Positions 34,896 through 43,185 of a stretch of 64,000 bases of DNA are shown piece by piece. How positions within the stretch are numbered: position 1 is the stretch's first letter; every line of letters starts with the position of its first letter. The notes under the pieces were generated by a model, which was not told the DNA's origin, did not search any database, and saw only the letters and a list, made by a program, of their open reading frames with translations. A program made the translations under genes and the position numbers. The DNA is from Nosocomiicoccus ampullae (lineage in GTDB: Bacteria > Bacillota > Bacilli > Staphylococcales > Salinicoccaceae). The stretch is taken from positions 1,426,001 to 1,490,000 of the forward strand of contig NZ_CP079110.1 of the NCBI RefSeq assembly GCF_019357495.1. The letters are read 5' to 3'.

Positions 34896-35735
34896 TTACC
34901 CGATTAAACGTACTTTGTATACTTCGTCACAAATCCCTTTAATTGCGTTAAATAACTGCGTTGCTTGATGTTCTTTCTTACAAATGCCGTACACTGTCGG
35001 TCCACTTCCACTCATTAGTACACCATCTGCTTTACTTTGCTTAAAACATTCGAGTAAACTGTCTACTTTTTTATAGCGTCGTCTCGTAATATTTTGTAAA
35101 TCATTTGATAGTGCTGCTATGACGTCTTCGTATGTACCGTTATTTAAAGCTTCAACCATTTTCTTCGTACCACGATTTGACTTCTCTTTACGAACTGCTT
35201 GGTATATTTGCTTTGTTGAGACACTAAGCCCTGGTTTTGCGAGAACAACCCATGCATTCACTGGCTTTTTAAGCGGCTGTGTCATTTCACCACGTCCTTT
35301 TGCGATTCTTGTACCACCATACACGCAAAAAGGTATATCCGACCCGATTTCAGCACTACGACGTGCGAGCTCATTTATATCTAAATTTAAATCAAACAAT
35401 GTGTTCATGCCTCTAAATGTCGCAGCTGCATCTGAACTTCCACCACCAAGTCCAGCAGACACTGGGATATTTTTGTCGATATGGATATTTACACCACCTG
35501 CTCCGTACTCTTGCATAATTAAAGCAGCCTGGTAAACGAGATTTTTCTTACCGAGTGGTAAAAATCCATAATTTGAAGATAAAACAATTCGATTATCTTG
35601 TCGCTTTTCAAATGTAAGATAATCATTTAAATCAATTGTTGTCATCACCATTTCGACTTCATGATATCCATCGTCGCGCTTATAGAGTACATCTAGCGTT
35701 AAATTAATCTTCGCTGGTGCTGTTTCTATATGCAT
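34896..35735 (-). CDS. ispE: 4-diphosphocytidyl-2-C-methyl-D-erythritol kinase family protein (IspE)
   Basis: GHMP kinase of the MEP isoprenoid pathway in organisms that have it. 279 residues: N-terminal APAKINLTLDV, the ATP-binding PVSAGLGGGSSDAAATFRG (about 90-108) and the C-terminal LMSGSGPTVYGI. Staphylococcaceae make isoprenoids by mevalonate, and their retained IspE homologue at this locus has an unclear role, so kinase function on the MEP intermediate is uncertain. In S. aureus veg and rsmA lie directly upstream; here about 7 kb of accessory genes intervene. Confidence 0.92.
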   Translation of the reverse strand: MHIETAPAKINLTLDVLYKRDDGYHEVEMVMTTIDLNDYLTFEKRQDNRIVLSSNYGFLPLGKKNLVYQAALIMQEYGAGGVNIHIDKNIPVSAGLGGGSSDAAATFRGMNTLFDLNLDINELARRSAEIGSDIPFCVYGGTRIAKGRGEMTQPLKKPVNAWVVLAKPGLSVSTKQIYQAVRKEKSNRGTKKMVEALNNGTYEDVIAALSNDLQNITRRRYKKVDSLLECFKQSKADGVLMSGSGPTVYGICKKEHQATQLFNAIKGICDEVYKVRLIG

Positions 35736-36829: not shown

Positions 36830-37647
36830 AAAACTCCTTTCTTAGGTGCAAATATAAATGCGAGTAAGAAAAATGCTGTTGCAACGAGCACAATCGTTGG
36901 ACCACTTGATAGGTTGAATTTAATACTAAACATTAGTCCAATAATTGCTGAGATTCCGCCAAGACTCGCTGATAATATAATCATGGATGACATACGTTTT
37001 GTGAGTAAATACGCAGTCGCTGCTGGTGTAATTAAAAGGCTCACAACTAATACAACCCCGACAGTTTGTAGTGATACGACTGTAACGAGTGTGAGCAAGA
37101 CCATTAAACCGTAGTGAATAGTTTTTACCGGCATACCGCTTGCTTCTGCCATCGTTGGATCAAATGTTGTCATTAAAAATTCTTTATAGAATAACACAAC
37201 AACAAATATTACAACTCCAGCAACAATCAGCGTTAATGTTCTATCGACATCTCGAACTGTTAATACGTTACCAAATAGTATTTCTGTTAAATCCATAGCC
37301 GTATTCGCCTTAGCAATAAGAAGTACCCCAATTGCAAAAAATGTCGAAAACACAATTCCAATAGCTGAGTCATTTTTAATATTACTGTTCTGATTAATAA
37401 ACCCAATGCCAATCGCTGCAAGTAAACCGACAACAACAGCACCAATGAAAAAGTTAATGCCGAGCATAAACGAAATCGCAACACCTGGTAACACCGCATG
37501 GGAGATTGCGTCTCCCATTAACGCAAGTCCCCGTAAGACGATAAAGCTCCCAATCACACCACATACGATTCCTACAACTAATCCTGTGAGTAATGCTTTT
37601 TGAAAGAACTCATAAGCAAAAATATCTTGAAAGATATTCATGACCAT
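36814..37647 (-). CDS. Metal ABC transporter permease
   Basis: 277 residues of the ABC-3 (ZnuB/MntB) family with about eight membrane helices, starting MVMNIFQDIFAYEFFQKALLTG and containing the conserved LMGDAISHAVLPGVAISF loop that docks to the ATPase. It shares one base with the ATPase gene upstream and overlaps the lipoprotein gene downstream, so the three are translated together. Confidence 0.93.
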   Translation of the reverse strand: MVMNIFQDIFAYEFFQKALLTGLVVGIVCGVIGSFIVLRGLALMGDAISHAVLPGVAISFMLGINFFIGAVVVGLLAAIGIGFINQNSNIKNDSAIGIVFSTFFAIGVLLIAKANTAMDLTEILFGNVLTVRDVDRTLTLIVAGVVIFVVVLFYKEFLMTTFDPTMAEASGMPVKTIHYGLMVLLTLVTVVSLQTVGVVLVVSLLITPAATAYLLTKRMSSMIILSASLGGISAIIGLMFSIKFNLSSGPTIVLVATAFFLLAFIFAPKKGVLWKWI

Positions 37648-38372
37648 TATGCTTCACCTGCTTTCACAATGATGTTATCACCGTATGCTTCTTTTAAGTT
37701 TTTCTCAGTGAATACTTTATCGACTGATCCGTAAGCTAATACACCATGGTCAACTAATATAAGACCATCAAAATAGTCGTGCACTTTACTTAAATCATGA
37801 TGAACAATTAATATCGTAATGCCGTCTCTTGCCATTTCTTTTAAGACGTTGACGATAACTTTTTCACTTTTAACATCAATCCCAACAAATGGTTCATCTA
37901 AAAACACAAGATCACTATGTTGCGCGAGTGTTCTAGCCATTAATATGCGCTGAAATTGTCCGCCAGATAGCTCTCCGATTTGACGATCTTTAAATTCTTC
38001 CATACCAACCTTTTTAAGACTTTCTAACGTACGTTCCTTTTCTTTTTTACCTGGGCGTTTAATAAGCCCGAGATTTGGATACGTACCCATCAATACACAA
38101 TCAAATACAGTCATTGGAAAAGTCATATCTATATTTGCTCGCTGAGGGACGTAAGACGTACGCTTTGCATGTTTTTTCATACGCTCACCATTAAAAGTCA
38201 CTTGACCTGAACTTGGCACAAGATCTAGCATGCCTTTAATCAAAGAAGACTTACCAGCACCGTTCGAGCCGATAATGCCATATATATTACCTGTTTCTAG
38301 TTCAAATGACGCATCACGTATCGCATGGATATGTTTATCGTATACGACATTTAAATCTTCTACCTTTAGCAT
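37647..38372 (-). CDS. Metal ABC transporter ATP-binding protein
   Basis: 241 residues, the ATPase of the manganese-type importer. Walker A GSNGAGKSS (about 35-43), Q-loop VPQRANID, signature LSGGQFQR, Walker B LVFLDEP and the H-loop VHHDLSK are all present. It is first in the operon. Its promoter (38403-38431) overlaps an inverted repeat that may be a metalloregulator site. The three-gene operon lies between ispE and veg, which are adjacent in S. aureus. Confidence 0.94.
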   Translation of the reverse strand: MLKVEDLNVVYDKHIHAIRDASFELETGNIYGIIGSNGAGKSSLIKGMLDLVPSSGQVTFNGERMKKHAKRTSYVPQRANIDMTFPMTVFDCVLMGTYPNLGLIKRPGKKEKERTLESLKKVGMEEFKDRQIGELSGGQFQRILMARTLAQHSDLVFLDEPFVGIDVKSEKVIVNVLKEMARDGITILIVHHDLSKVHDYFDGLILVDHGVLAYGSVDKVFTEKNLKEAYGDNIIVKAGEA

Positions 38373-38402
38373 TTTATATCACCCTATCTTTGTATAATTT
38401 TT

Positions 38403-38438
38403 AGGATACCATATATTTATTTTTTAGTAAACCCTAAA
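38403..38438 (-). promoter_or_regulatory. Promoter and candidate metalloregulator site of the Mn-type transporter
   Basis: Minus strand: -35 TTTACT (38426-38431), 17-bp spacer, -10 TATCCT (38403-38408). TTTAG (38423-38427) and CTAAA (38434-38438) form an inverted repeat over the -35, resembling the TTTAGG half-sites of DtxR/MntR-family operators. Identity of the regulator is inference. Confidence 0.45.
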
Positions 38439-38548
38439 CATTTAGAAAATGATGAGAGTTTGAGGGTGGAGTTGCATTTATTCGTGTGAATAATTGTTTT
38501 TTTGCAGATAAAGAACGACTGTGTGAGCATAGAATTCATGTTTCGTTG

Positions 38549-38776
38549 CTCTTATTTACAAATTCGAGCTTGCAGCACTAAAATTTGTTAAATATATCCA
38601 GTTATTTAACAAAAAATCAGAATTGCGAACTATTTTTGTTAGATAAAAAAATATATTTAACAAATATCAATCGACTCAAGCAAAATATGTTAAATATATC
38701 CGGATATCTAACAGAATCACCATTTTTTTGTTAAATATAATTTTGCGAAGTATTTTATTACCCTTGAGAAGATAAA
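38549..38776. repeat. Direct repeat copy 1 with phased palindromes, locus 2
   Basis: 228-bp element nearly identical to 39730-39956 (a handful of substitutions and one 1-base indel). It contains 30-bp palindromes starting at 38584, 38635 and 38686, exactly 51 bp apart, then a fourth partial unit 41 bp later and a half-unit about 50 bp before the first. Arms are of the type TTTGTTAAATATATC and TTATTTAACAAA. Spacers include AGAATTGCGAAC. The stretch 38439-38548 before it holds no recognisable gene. Confidence 0.9.
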
Positions 38777-38807
38777 CAGTCTATTTCAACCGCTTAGCTG
38801 CAAGACA

Positions 38808-38887
38808 CCACGCTTTTCATCTCTCTTATTTACAAATTTATGCCTTGGATGCGGAAATTTGTTAGATATATCCAGTTATTTAACAAA
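38808..38887. repeat. Direct repeat copy 3, partial, before the peptide gene
   Basis: About 80 bp matching the first part of the 39715-39797 copy, including CGCTTTTCATCTCTCTTATTT and one full 30-bp palindrome (38858-38887). It ends 18 bases before the start codon of the peptide gene, so the palindrome could act in that gene's control region. Confidence 0.8.
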
Positions 38888-38905
38888 AAAGATGATACAT
38901 TAATA

Positions 38906-39121
38906 ATGAGTGAGTCTATCTCTAAAGATAAAGAAATTACTACCAATTATTTAATATCAGAAAATGAAGTTAGTACATATGCATTAACAGACAAACAAGT
39001 CTTCGCTTTAGAATGGGCTTGTATATTCTCAAGCTACATGGGATGTATAGGAACATCACTAGCCGCAGGAGCAGCTGGAACACTAATTTCCAGACCTGTA
39101 GTAACTGTTACTGGAGCCTAG
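38906..39121 (+). CDS. Bacteriocin-like small peptide precursor (candidate)
   Basis: 71 residues. A charged, leader-like N-terminal half (MSESISKDKEITTNYLISEN and on to TDKQVF) is followed by a hydrophobic, Gly/Ala/Ser/Thr-rich half with two cysteines seven residues apart (WACIFSSYMGC) and GTSLAAGAAGT, ending VVTVTGA. This leader-plus-core layout resembles ribosomally made antimicrobial peptides, but I do not recognise the family and no modification enzyme or exporter lies nearby. The ATG at 38906 has only a weak RBS; an ATG at 38840 would run through the repeat. A second frame just downstream (39129-39200) encodes a peptide-like stretch, hinting at a frameshift. Next comes an immunity-like gene. 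Confidence 0.5.
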   Translation: MSESISKDKEITTNYLISENEVSTYALTDKQVFALEWACIFSSYMGCIGTSLAAGAAGTLISRPVVTVTGA

Positions 39122-39219
39122 GAGGATGAGCTTGCAGATACCTTTTCCAAACACCAGTTGAACAATTCGGCGGAAAACAAGCCGCTTGTAAATTTTTTAG
39201 TTAAAGTGAGTTTTATTTT

Positions 39220-39399
39220 ATGAGTAAAAGAAAAAATTATATGAAAATAATTTCATGGATAATACTTATAATATTTATTGATGTAATATTATTCTCGTTT
39301 TTACCTGATTCTAATTGGTTAGAAATATTATTTAGTTTCTCTACTATCATGATCGTGGGTGCAATAGGAGTAACTATAATTTTAAAAATATTTGATTAA
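39220..39399 (+). CDS. Small two-helix membrane protein, possible immunity protein
   Basis: 59 residues, MSKRKNYMKIISWIILIIF at the start, with two predicted membrane helices (about 9-27 and 37-56) joined by a short polar loop (LPDSNWLE). The N-terminus is basic, so it should face the cytoplasm. Size and topology match the small immunity proteins often encoded after bacteriocin genes. The RBS AAAGTGAG lies 11 bases upstream. A terminator at 39458-39491 closes the unit. Immunity is inferred from context only; no family was recognised. Confidence 0.55.
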   Translation: MSKRKNYMKIISWIILIIFIDVILFSFLPDSNWLEILFSFSTIMIVGAIGVTIILKIFD

Positions 39400-39457
39400 T
39401 TTTTATTCCTGTTTACTTCTAGTGTGACCAACAGCGAAGCAAGATAAAAAAGTTGTA

Positions 39458-39491
39458 GAATGACTTGAGAACAAACGACCTCAAGTCATTC
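39458..39491 (+). terminator. Terminator after the peptide cassette
   Basis: 12-bp perfect stem GAATGACTTGAG/CTCAAGTCATTC with a 10-base loop followed by GAATTTTT. From here to 39729 I see no gene. Confidence 0.75.
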
Positions 39492-39729
39492 GAATTTTTA
39501 GTATGTTTATGTTCGATATTCTAGAAAAATTTCCTCATAATGATAGCATCTTTAAACCTTTACATCATCTGCATGTTGCCTCTCATTCTTTATTTCGATT
39601 TTATAGACATTCATGACTAAAGGCCCATACAAGGTCTTATACACTCAATTTTATGATTTTTAAGGAAATCCTTTAGTTGATTAAAACCTAATTTCACTGC
39701 TTAACATCAGGAGACTACGCTTTTCATCT

Positions 39730-39956
39730 CTCTTATTTACAAATTCGAGCTTGCAGCACTAAAATTTGTTAAATATATCAAGTTATTTAACAAAAAATCA
39801 GAATTGCGAACTATTTTTGTTAGATAAAAAAATATATTTAACAAATATCAATCGACTCAAGCAAAATATGTTAAATATATCCGGATATCTAACAGAATCA
39901 CAATTTTTTGTTAAATATAATTTCTCGAAGTATTTTATTACACTTGAGAAGATAAA
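39730..39956. repeat. Direct repeat copy 2 with phased palindromes, locus 2
   Basis: 227-bp near-identical copy of 38549-38776, in the same orientation. Palindromes start at 39765, 39816 and 39867 (51-bp steps), then a partial unit 40 bp on. With copy 1 it brackets the peptide cassette in a 1.4-kb interval. The 92 bases up to 40048 hold the upstream region of the next gene. Confidence 0.9.
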
Positions 39957-40048
39957 ACTCCTTCGTCCACCCACTTTATCTTCAAAAAACTACCACTATA
40001 ACAAAACTCATGTAAACTATAAGTAACGATTGAACTAGGAGAGATATT

Positions 40049-40822
40049 ATGGATGCTTATAAAGTTCGCGAACGTATTAGAAGTGGGCAACATAAGAAAA
40101 CAACTTCTGGACTTGCAAATGATAATGTGCAAGCGAATCTTGTTGTCCTCCCTAAAGAGTATGCATTTGATTTTTTACTTTACGCGATGCGCAATAAAAC
40201 ACCCATTCCAATTATCGAAGTTTTAGAAGATGGTAAATTTAAGAGTCGATACGCAAAAGATTCCGACATTCGCACAGATATTCCGTTTTATAATATTTAC
40301 AAAAATGGTGAACTCGTTGACACAGTCGAGGACGTAAAAGAATTTTGGCAAGATGATTTTGTATCATTTTTAATTGGATGTAGTTTTACGTTTGAAGACG
40401 CGCTTATAAAAGCAAATATCCCACTTAAACATATTGAAGAAAATAAAAACGTTGCGATGTTTAAAACAAATATCCCAACTGAACGCGCAGGAGTATTTCA
40501 TGGAAATATGGTCGTTTCAATGCGCCCAATCAAAAAAGAATTCGTTGACCAGGCTGTTGAAATTACGTCACAGTTTAAAGATATGCACGGCGGGCCAGTA
40601 CATATCGGTGATCCAAGCGCAATCGGTATTACTGATATTAGAACACCTGATTACGGAGAAGCTATTGAACTATCTGAAGATGAAGTTCCTGTATTTTGGG
40701 GATGTGGTGTAACTCCACAAAACGCTATTTTACAAGCGAAGCCACCAATTATGATCAGTCATAAACCAGGATATATGTTTATTACAGATATTAATAACGA
40801 AGCGTTTAAAGATTCGAAATAA
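40049..40822 (+). CDS. DUF1445 putative hydro-lyase (YcsI / D-glutamate cyclase family)
   Basis: 257 residues, the usual length. Family features include VRERIRSGQHKKTTSGLANDN, LVVLPKEYAFDFLLYAMRNK, SFLIGCSFTFEDAL and the C-terminal VFWGCGVTPQNAILQAKPPI and SHKPGYMFITD. The fold is related to mammalian D-glutamate cyclase; bacterial members are annotated only as putative hydro-lyases. The start follows AGGAGAG. It is a single gene on the plus strand between the repeat cassette and a bidirectional terminator. The substrate is unknown. Confidence 0.9.
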   Translation: MDAYKVRERIRSGQHKKTTSGLANDNVQANLVVLPKEYAFDFLLYAMRNKTPIPIIEVLEDGKFKSRYAKDSDIRTDIPFYNIYKNGELVDTVEDVKEFWQDDFVSFLIGCSFTFEDALIKANIPLKHIEENKNVAMFKTNIPTERAGVFHGNMVVSMRPIKKEFVDQAVEITSQFKDMHGGPVHIGDPSAIGITDIRTPDYGEAIELSEDEVPVFWGCGVTPQNAILQAKPPIMISHKPGYMFITDINNEAFKDSK

Positions 40823-40834
40823 AAGTGATAAGTA

Positions 40835-40869
40835 AAAACCAGTTCTATAAATAAAATAGAACTGGTTTT
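40835..40869. terminator. Bidirectional terminator between convergent genes
   Basis: AAAACCAGTTCTAT/ATAGAACTGGTTTT, 14-bp perfect stem with 7-base loop, between the DUF1445 gene and the nucleoside hydrolase gene. Confidence 0.9.
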
Positions 40870-40873
40870 ATCT

Positions 40874-41803
40874 TTATTTCTTTAATGTATCTATGAAATC
40901 TTTAACAAATCGTTCTCCATCAACTGCTGTACATACTTTCATGTTCGGCTCTTTGCCAAGTTGACCTCTAAAGTCTGCGATTGTTTGTCCGTAACTTAAC
41001 GGACTTTGTATTTCTACATCTACATATACAGGTACTGTTTCTACATATGATTCGTCGAGCACGTATCCAATTGTCAGTGGATCATGTAGTGAACATTCAT
41101 TTTTTCCATGTAGCTTTTCTCCGTATGAGCGATATATTTCTGTTGAATCTTTTACATAGTCAAAGTACTTCGTACCTTCTAATTCGTTTATATGGTCCAT
41201 GTTAAGTTGTGTTTGATGTGTGACATCTAAACTGACCATTGTGATGTCGAGTCCTTTATGGAAGACAACTTTCGCTGCTTCAGCGTCTGCAAATATATTA
41301 AACTCTGATGTTGGAAGTTTATTTCCGTAACCTGCTTTACTGACAATTCCACCCATTAATACGAGGCGTTTAATTTTATGTTTAATCCCTGGCGACTTTT
41401 TCATAGCAAGTGCTAGATTTGTAAGTGGGCCTACCATGACAAGTGTGACTTCCCCAGGATATTTATTTACTGTATCGATAATAAAGTCTGCGGCGAACGT
41501 GTCTTCTAATTCCATTGTAACTTCCATATCATCTAGTGCATTTCCGATACCGTCTGTACCATGTACATGGTATTCGTGCTCAGGCTCTCTTAAATATGGT
41601 TCTTCCGCACCTGGATATACTTTAATATCTCTTCTGTCTGCAAGCTGAAGAATTTTTAACGTGTTTTTAGTAACAAAATCGAGCGGTACATTACCATTCA
41701 CCGTCGTAATTCCTAAAATATCTAGTTTTTTACTTTCAATCGCATATAAAATTGCGAGCGCATCATCAATTCCAGTATCTACATCTAAAATAATTTTTTC
41801 CAT
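40874..41803 (-). CDS. Nucleoside hydrolase (inosine-uridine type)
   Basis: Cleaves ribonucleosides to base and ribose. 309 residues with the calcium and ribose-binding signature ILDVDTGIDDALAILYA at the N-terminus, GTDGIGNAL, TLVMVGPLTNLALAM and HDPLTIGYVL near the C-terminus. It lies 52 bases after ribokinase on the same strand. Released ribose would be phosphorylated by that neighbour, forming a two-step salvage module. Base preference cannot be told from sequence here. Confidence 0.93.
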   Translation of the reverse strand: MEKIILDVDTGIDDALAILYAIESKKLDILGITTVNGNVPLDFVTKNTLKILQLADRRDIKVYPGAEEPYLREPEHEYHVHGTDGIGNALDDMEVTMELEDTFAADFIIDTVNKYPGEVTLVMVGPLTNLALAMKKSPGIKHKIKRLVLMGGIVSKAGYGNKLPTSEFNIFADAEAAKVVFHKGLDITMVSLDVTHQTQLNMDHINELEGTKYFDYVKDSTEIYRSYGEKLHGKNECSLHDPLTIGYVLDESYVETVPVYVDVEIQSPLSYGQTIADFRGQLGKEPNMKVCTAVDGERFVKDFIDTLKK

Positions 41804-42897: not shown

Positions 42898-43185
42898 TTA
42901 ATTTGCCACTTCTTCGTCTTCAATCAATACAAGTTTCTCTGTCTTGTCTTCATTGAAAACTGTGATTTCTACATGTTTAGTCAAGATGTCTGAATATGAA
43001 TATGAGACACATTCAAAGTTATGTTTTTCTGGATCAAGTTCGACGACAAATATCGCTGGATGTGTTTCTCTTAACACACCTTTACGTCTAATAATTGTAC
43101 GTCTACCACCCTGTGCTTCAAGTAATACGGGACTTCCTACTTCGTCTTCTAAGATTCCTCGGATATCTCTTAATGTCTTTGGCAT
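42898..43185 (-). CDS. veg: Veg protein
   Basis: 95 residues. It starts MPKTLRDIRGILEDEVGSPVLLEAQGGRRTIIRRKGVL in part and ends with an acidic EDEEVAN. In B. subtilis Veg stimulates biofilm formation, acting through SinR; a general role is unclear. It has its own strong promoter (43216-43244) and terminator, and lies just downstream of rsmA as in all Bacillales. Confidence 0.95.
   Translation of the reverse strand: MPKTLRDIRGILEDEVGSPVLLEAQGGRRTIIRRKGVLRETHPAIFVVELDPEKHNFECVSYSYSDILTKHVEITVFNEDKTEKLVLIEDEEVAN

Follow-up and report, generated by a model that had tools for sequence, protein, structure and literature searches.

The locus described here lies in the window (a 64,000-nucleotide stretch of the Nosocomiicoccus ampullae genome) and combines a pseudogene remnant with an intact neighboring gene (Table 1). 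We read it with some confidence as a decayed gene for a Sec-secreted, disulfide-type bacteriocin precursor, followed by an intact candidate immunity gene (ORF2). The first gene is almost certainly a pseudogene, and very probably the relic of a bacteriocin-type precursor. It is broken, its partner is intact and constrained, the two genes are syntenic with pairs in staphylococci, and their context is mobile.

Table 1. Features of the locus and its flanks (window positions)
Feature	Position	Strand	Remarks
Dispersed AT-rich repeat, left copy	38541..38776		Three imperfect ~36-nt palindromes; single copy here in congener G018
Partial third repeat copy	38781..38890		82% to 39691-39797; abuts precursor remnant and marks 5' truncation
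Precursor remnant, part 1	38897..39118	+	Matches residues 125-194 of S. caledonicus-type precursor, first Cys pair; holds 71-aa frame
Precursor remnant, part 2 (other frame)	39118..39204	+	Residues 195-221, second Cys pair; internal TGA 39127-39129; old stop TAA 39202-39204
ORF2, intact 59-aa two-helix membrane protein	39220..39399	+	DUF6007-like; candidate immunity gene; 15 nt past old precursor stop
Intrinsic-terminator-like hairpin and U run	39458..39491	+	-18.8 kcal/mol, z -5.3, 0/200 shuffles
Repeat, right copy	39722..39956		96-97% to left copy

A preliminary description of this DNA had presented the first gene as a complete leader-plus-core peptide of 71 residues. A frame of 71 codons is indeed open on the + strand from ATG 38906 to TAG 39119-39121, with two cysteines separated by seven residues and a Gly/Ala/Thr-rich tail, as that description had it. 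The frame also holds a WACIFSSY core with the first Cys pair. No Shine-Dalgarno sequence was visible by eye before ATG 38906, the frame lacks a signal peptide, and promoter-like sites around the locus occurred at chance level (10 vs. 10.4 ± 3.3). The profile search proposed at the outset for both peptides returned nothing for the 71-residue one in Pfam or NCBIfam at E ≤10 and only a sub-threshold DUF6007 match for ORF2. Direct searches of genome contigs, viral contigs, and phages yielded no match to the 71-residue peptide. Family-level six-frame matches (E 0.05-0.7) were taken as noise (the one in genome G020 was reexamined and had no precursor), and three Rhizobium plasmid matches (tblastn, E 2-3) were disregarded. 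Among plasmids, five records from Staphylococcus simulans were matched weakly by tblastn (E 0.1-0.6). The S. simulans protein runs past the stop of the window frame and ends in ...CRYIFQTAVEK-GGKDAACKVLS, and the window reads ACRYLFQTPVEQFGGKQAACKFFS at 39130-39201, in another frame and directly before ORF2.

Comparison of the S. caledonicus-type precursor with the genome of the window placed residues 125-194 at 38897-39118 (E 6e-13; hhalign E 7e-17) and residues 195-221 at 39118-39198 (E 7e-7, 67% identity, one TGA); the second part of the match had played no role in finding the homologue. ATG 38906 falls within the coding region of this longer homologue and is thus an internal codon. Hence, the idea of a complete peptide had to be abandoned: the 71 residues come from the middle of a Sec-type precursor of 222-228 aa that is broken in three ways, with residues 1-124 gone (repeat DNA stands in place of the 5' part), a frameshift, and a stop codon inside. 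The 98 bases reported between the two frames (39121 to 39220) were counted correctly, and this gap is the dead C-terminus of the precursor.

That the 71-residue frame is nonetheless a functional shortened peptide, with a new start, a new stop, and ORF2 as its immunity protein, is very unlikely. Its open frame and retained Cys pair and core would suit such a peptide, whereas the lack of a visible Shine-Dalgarno sequence, of a promoter excess, and of a signal peptide does not; moreover, the second Cys pair, kept in all five sequences of alignment A3, is gone, and the homologous C-terminus lies dead in another frame. A programmed frameshift that yields the full C-terminus could be imagined because homology resumes immediately in the other frame. 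We give this practically no credence, as a TGA follows nine bases past the shift, the gene lacks its 5' part regardless, and intact relatives are single open frames. Sequencing or assembly error is about as improbable as a functional short peptide. Errors can produce single-base frameshifts in AT-rich DNA, and flanking repeats of 97% identity are able to mislead assembly, but here there are three independent lesions, one of them a missing 5' part, and S. massiliensis, S. americanisciuri, S. simulans, and genome G113 likewise carry broken copies. A decayed precursor remains our reading. Of the three options first offered (minimal system, orphan, or remnant), remnant suits the peptide and orphan suits its partner, while the minimal system was not chosen.

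Relatives of the precursor occur mostly in staphylococci. We searched with a 222-aa form from genome G082 (identical to that of S. caledonicus), found among loci around DUF6007 genes in the order. Matches at E ≤1e-3 were obtained in 10 of 157 genomes of the order, seven of them convincing (G082, G115, G074, G113, G136, G045, and that of the window); G094, G053, and G065 were set aside as weak (E 3e-6 to 7e-4). The gene is free of stops in two of the seven, namely G082 and, over the matched part, G045. One stop is present in each of G115 and G113 and four in G074, and G136 lacks the 5' part. A class-level sample gave matches in 4/398 genomes, including an open 228-aa form in G257, and seven plasmid records matched, all from Staphylococcus (five from S. 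simulans). Intact precursors are found in S. caledonicus (222 aa), G257 (228 aa), and an S. xylosus plasmid (222 aa). These intact relatives have a hydrophobic Sec-type N-terminus (judged by eye), a long prodomain of ~115 residues, and a C-terminal domain of ~60-75 residues with four cysteines (162, 170, 200, and 218 in S. caledonicus numbering), which are invariant across the five sequences of alignment A3. An AlphaFold2 model of the S. caledonicus precursor had a mean pLDDT of 49, which is too low to support a comparison of folds, and a search of the S. simulans protein against the PDB returned nothing relevant (best E 0.75). The family is uncatalogued and has intact members, and we infer its bacteriocin nature from anatomy, plasmid location, and partner genes.

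The neighborhoods of the intact genes are informative. In S. caledonicus, the precursor and a downstream DUF6007 gene lie on a contig of 6.1 kb that also carries frames resembling Rep and Mob (names assigned by eye), and a DsbA/thioredoxin-like gene is convergent to the precursor unit. On the S. xylosus plasmid, the precursor is immediately preceded by a DsbA-like gene, with YidC nearby and no DUF6007. In G257, a thermolysin-like M4 protease is encoded directly downstream, with transposase-like frames (by eye) outside. The preliminary description would have been undermined by a lack of homologues linked to export or modification genes; DsbA-like thioredoxins were found beside two precursors and an M4 protease beside another. 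In G045, a hydrophobic frame of 53 aa comes after the precursor, and a frame of 59 aa comes after a second, precursor-like protein of 187 aa. These two tandem pairs, whose precursors are dissimilar, stand beside purine-biosynthesis-like genes (L065 4767-6436).

The anatomy of the family recalls TIGR04450 (Gpos_C8_like, "putative immunity/bacteriocin fusion bifunctional protein"; curated cut-off 27 bits). Like its members, precursors of the window's group have a long prodomain, a Cys-containing, Gly/Ala-rich C-terminal domain and, where complete, a Sec-type N-terminus. The intact relatives thus show the combination of Sec signal (by eye), long prodomain, and Cys-containing C-terminal domain, whereas the window copy keeps only the prodomain end and the C-terminal domain. 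A two-helix protein adjoins TIGR04450-type precursors as well, in loci L101, L102, and L104. Unlike the three aligned TIGR04450 members, which have six cysteines, the window's group has four invariant ones. The S. caledonicus precursor did not match TIGR04450 at E ≤1, nor did the window genome in a six-frame search; scores were 12.0 bits for G257, 12.9 for S. xylosus, and 27.1 for G045 (24.6 in a six-frame search). Profile comparison between the two groups was weak (prob 23%), and the intermediate G045 protein aligned with the window's group (A3; hhalign E 5e-23) but hardly with alignment A4 (prob 4%). Given the failed score test and the weak profile comparison, we rejected filing the window's group as TIGR04450 despite the G045 link. 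TIGR04450-type precursors, intact or broken, were observed with a divergent two-helix gene of 67-70 aa that does not resemble DUF6007 (L101 5038-6023, L102 2100-3075, L104 4004-4207), and in G027 an HTH protein with a two-helix tail lies near one (L103 2927-3370).

In haloarchaea, a single gene reportedly directs both the production of halocin C8 and immunity to it (said to be a 2005 finding of Sun et al.). In the loci studied here, by contrast, the candidate immunity protein has a two-helix gene of its own. Closticin 574 is another long-precursor bacteriocin. Cleavage of the longer halocin C8 precursor frees a bioactive C-terminal fragment, and the protease is given as unidentified (PMC12893001). 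The best reading of the window-type precursor is that it would work like a halocin-C8-like one. Literature searches on TIGR04450, TIGR04449, and the family names found nothing, and "halocin C8-like" together with Staphylococcus found nothing on this subject by title.

The remnant is bounded by copies of a dispersed repeat, which is built of ~36-nt imperfect palindromes (TTTGTTAAATATATCC..TATTTAACAAA) and has 31 matches in both orientations across the 1.55-Mb genome. Congener G018 presents the empty site: its matches to the window cover 37000-38776 and 39730-40999 and are separated by one repeat copy. Since G018 is continuous here with a single copy, the ~1.18 kb that hold the remnant (38541-39721) represent an insertion. 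Neither the precursor nor ORF2 had a match in congeners G017 and G018, which are drafts (93% and 86% complete). The partial repeat ends at 38890 where precursor homology starts, so the 5' part was probably lost by rearrangement at the repeat. The locus had been placed inside a repeat-bounded accessory block between ispE and veg. Repeats and both genes are there (an ispE-like GHMP kinase at 34896-35735 and VEG at 42898-43185, both by Pfam), but only the ~1.18 kb is inserted, and the other ispE-veg genes are present in G018. These include neighboring ZnuA, ABC-3, and ABC genes of metal-uptake type (Pfam), which, on account of that type and their presence in G018, are not a bacteriocin exporter.

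The 59-codon frame and the terminator 3' of it had been recognized correctly; the latter is a hairpin with a U tail. ORF2 matched Pfam DUF6007 (PF19470) over most of its length with 9.6 bits (E 1.1), short of the gathering cut-off of 26.7. Scored on an HMM of 30 DUF6007 proteins, ORF2 had 22.1 bits, a value that none of 5,000 shuffles attained (maximum 14.5). As a control, 194 hydrophobic frames (ORF2 counted among them) from the window and from loci without DUF6007 were scored on that HMM, and the next best had 5.4 bits. ORF2 is therefore homologous to DUF6007, to judge from its sequence, and it shares with that family both two-helix homology and a position downstream of a precursor. It lacks the GWWDL motif of many Staphylococcus DUF6007 proteins and forms part of a divergent branch, below the Pfam cut-off, in the window's own family. 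There, ORF2 or a relative occurs in 3/33 genomes: that of the window, G008 (65%), and G020 (two copies, 38% and 29%). Homology to DUF6007 extends to the G008 relative (23.4 bits, E 5.6e-5, against the Pfam cut-off of 26.7) and to one of the two G020 copies; the second (29%) does not match. In G008, which is of another genus, the relative comes after a 538-aa gene, and tblastn with six precursors found no precursor homologue near the G008 or G020 copies (best E 1.0). ORF2 and the G008 gene differ at 24.3 of 32.8 synonymous sites (near saturation) and 21.7 of 120.2 nonsynonymous sites; synonymous change far above nonsynonymous change indicates a real, constrained protein. ORF2 had no match among plasmids at E ≤10. 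Beside one ORF2 relative in G020, a tandemly repeated frame (CPNYSFIWTIVGRN..; L116 2634-3059) is probably a non-coding tandem repeat.

The suggestion of a bacteriocin-like gene with an immunity-like partner gains support from plasmid homologues with a conserved small two-helix gene directly downstream, although the peptide itself is a pseudogene. In both S. simulans plasmid loci that we opened, the gene after the precursor homologue is DUF6007, the nearest Pfam match of ORF2, which makes precursor and partner a syntenic pair. A small two-helix frame lies directly downstream in 7 of 10 precursor loci (the window, G082, G115, G074, G113, G136, and G045, but not G257, S. xylosus, or S. arlettae; the S. 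simulans plasmid copies, of G136 type, were left out of this recount). The distance from precursor stop to partner start is 15 nt in the window; measured in five Staphylococcus loci with DUF6007 as the downstream gene, it is likewise 15 nt in three (S. caledonicus, S. americanisciuri, and an S. simulans plasmid), 16 nt in S. massiliensis, and 11 nt in G113. Judged purely from such linkage, there is an even chance that ORF2 is an immunity gene.

In the order, 40 of the 157 genomes searched have DUF6007 at E ≤1e-3 (38 above the cut-off), and 47 of 49 matches in these genomes are without a stop. A precursor homologue was located within 1.5 kb in 5/30 DUF6007 loci and was absent in 25/30, as it was from four more plasmids with DUF6007 genes (S. 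epidermidis, S. lugdunensis, S. caprae, and S. aureus). DUF6007 without a precursor fits orphan immunity and a different function equally. With non-homologous codons at truncation points trimmed off, synonymous to nonsynonymous differences between S. massiliensis and S. americanisciuri were 8:3 for DUF6007 and 8:11 for the broken precursor (P 0.14); inclusion of S. simulans made them 8:3 vs. 4:10 (P 0.047). No contrast between the two genes emerged in three comparisons that involved the intact S. caledonicus copy (P 0.36-0.80), and the evidence that DUF6007 is more constrained than adjacent broken precursors is suggestive only. A literature search found nothing on DUF6007. On the S. caprae plasmid NZ_CP051646.1, a secreted-looking, Cys/His-containing protein of 228 aa is encoded on the opposite strand upstream of DUF6007, near YidC (L106 2341-3027); it scored weakly on NF053514 (JUQZ_fam_ocin; 15.8 bits, cut-off 40) and is perhaps a second precursor type tied to DUF6007.

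ORF2 and DUF6007 could instead be small membrane proteins of other function (e.g., in stress or envelope physiology) that stand beside precursors on plasmids by chance, a reading we regard as rather doubtful but worth weighing. It would account for the 25 of 30 fetched DUF6007 loci with no precursor nearby, for the one neighborhood shared by copies L016-L019, and for the G008 relative behind its 538-aa gene. Chance is harder to reconcile with DUF6007 directly downstream in all five Staphylococcus-genus genomes that have a convincing precursor (the weak G094 set aside), the same arrangement in both opened S. simulans plasmid loci, the near-constant spacing, and a different two-helix gene in the same place beside the divergent G045 precursor. 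It is quite possible, if still a tentative proposal, that DUF6007 is a stand-alone immunity family for undescribed Sec-secreted four-Cys bacteriocins, and that the toxin gene is lost time and again in staphylococci and related bacteria, with the immunity gene retained on both plasmids and chromosomes.

On the favored reading of a decayed bacteriocin unit, a small mobile element would have inserted at the dispersed repeat, and the locus would be its remains. Its first gene would once have encoded a precursor with a signal peptide, a prodomain of ~115 residues, and a four-Cys C-terminal domain. Intact relatives are presumably exported by Sec, with disulfide bonds in the mature domain probably formed by a dedicated DsbA-like oxidase and the mature peptide released by a protease, for which the M4 enzyme would be the natural candidate in G257. 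The mature peptide may have a membrane target, and ORF2, most likely seated in the membrane, would protect its host against the mature peptides that such systems make and would have outlived the precursor gene as an orphan.

A tempting false positive is thereby put right, as the "minimal bacteriocin" is a pseudogene fragment. What is new is an uncatalogued family of bacteriocin precursors with intact, testable copies, together with a concrete function hypothesis for DUF6007, a domain common in staphylococci. If that hypothesis is true, orphan DUF6007 copies would be a record of past exposure to these toxins.
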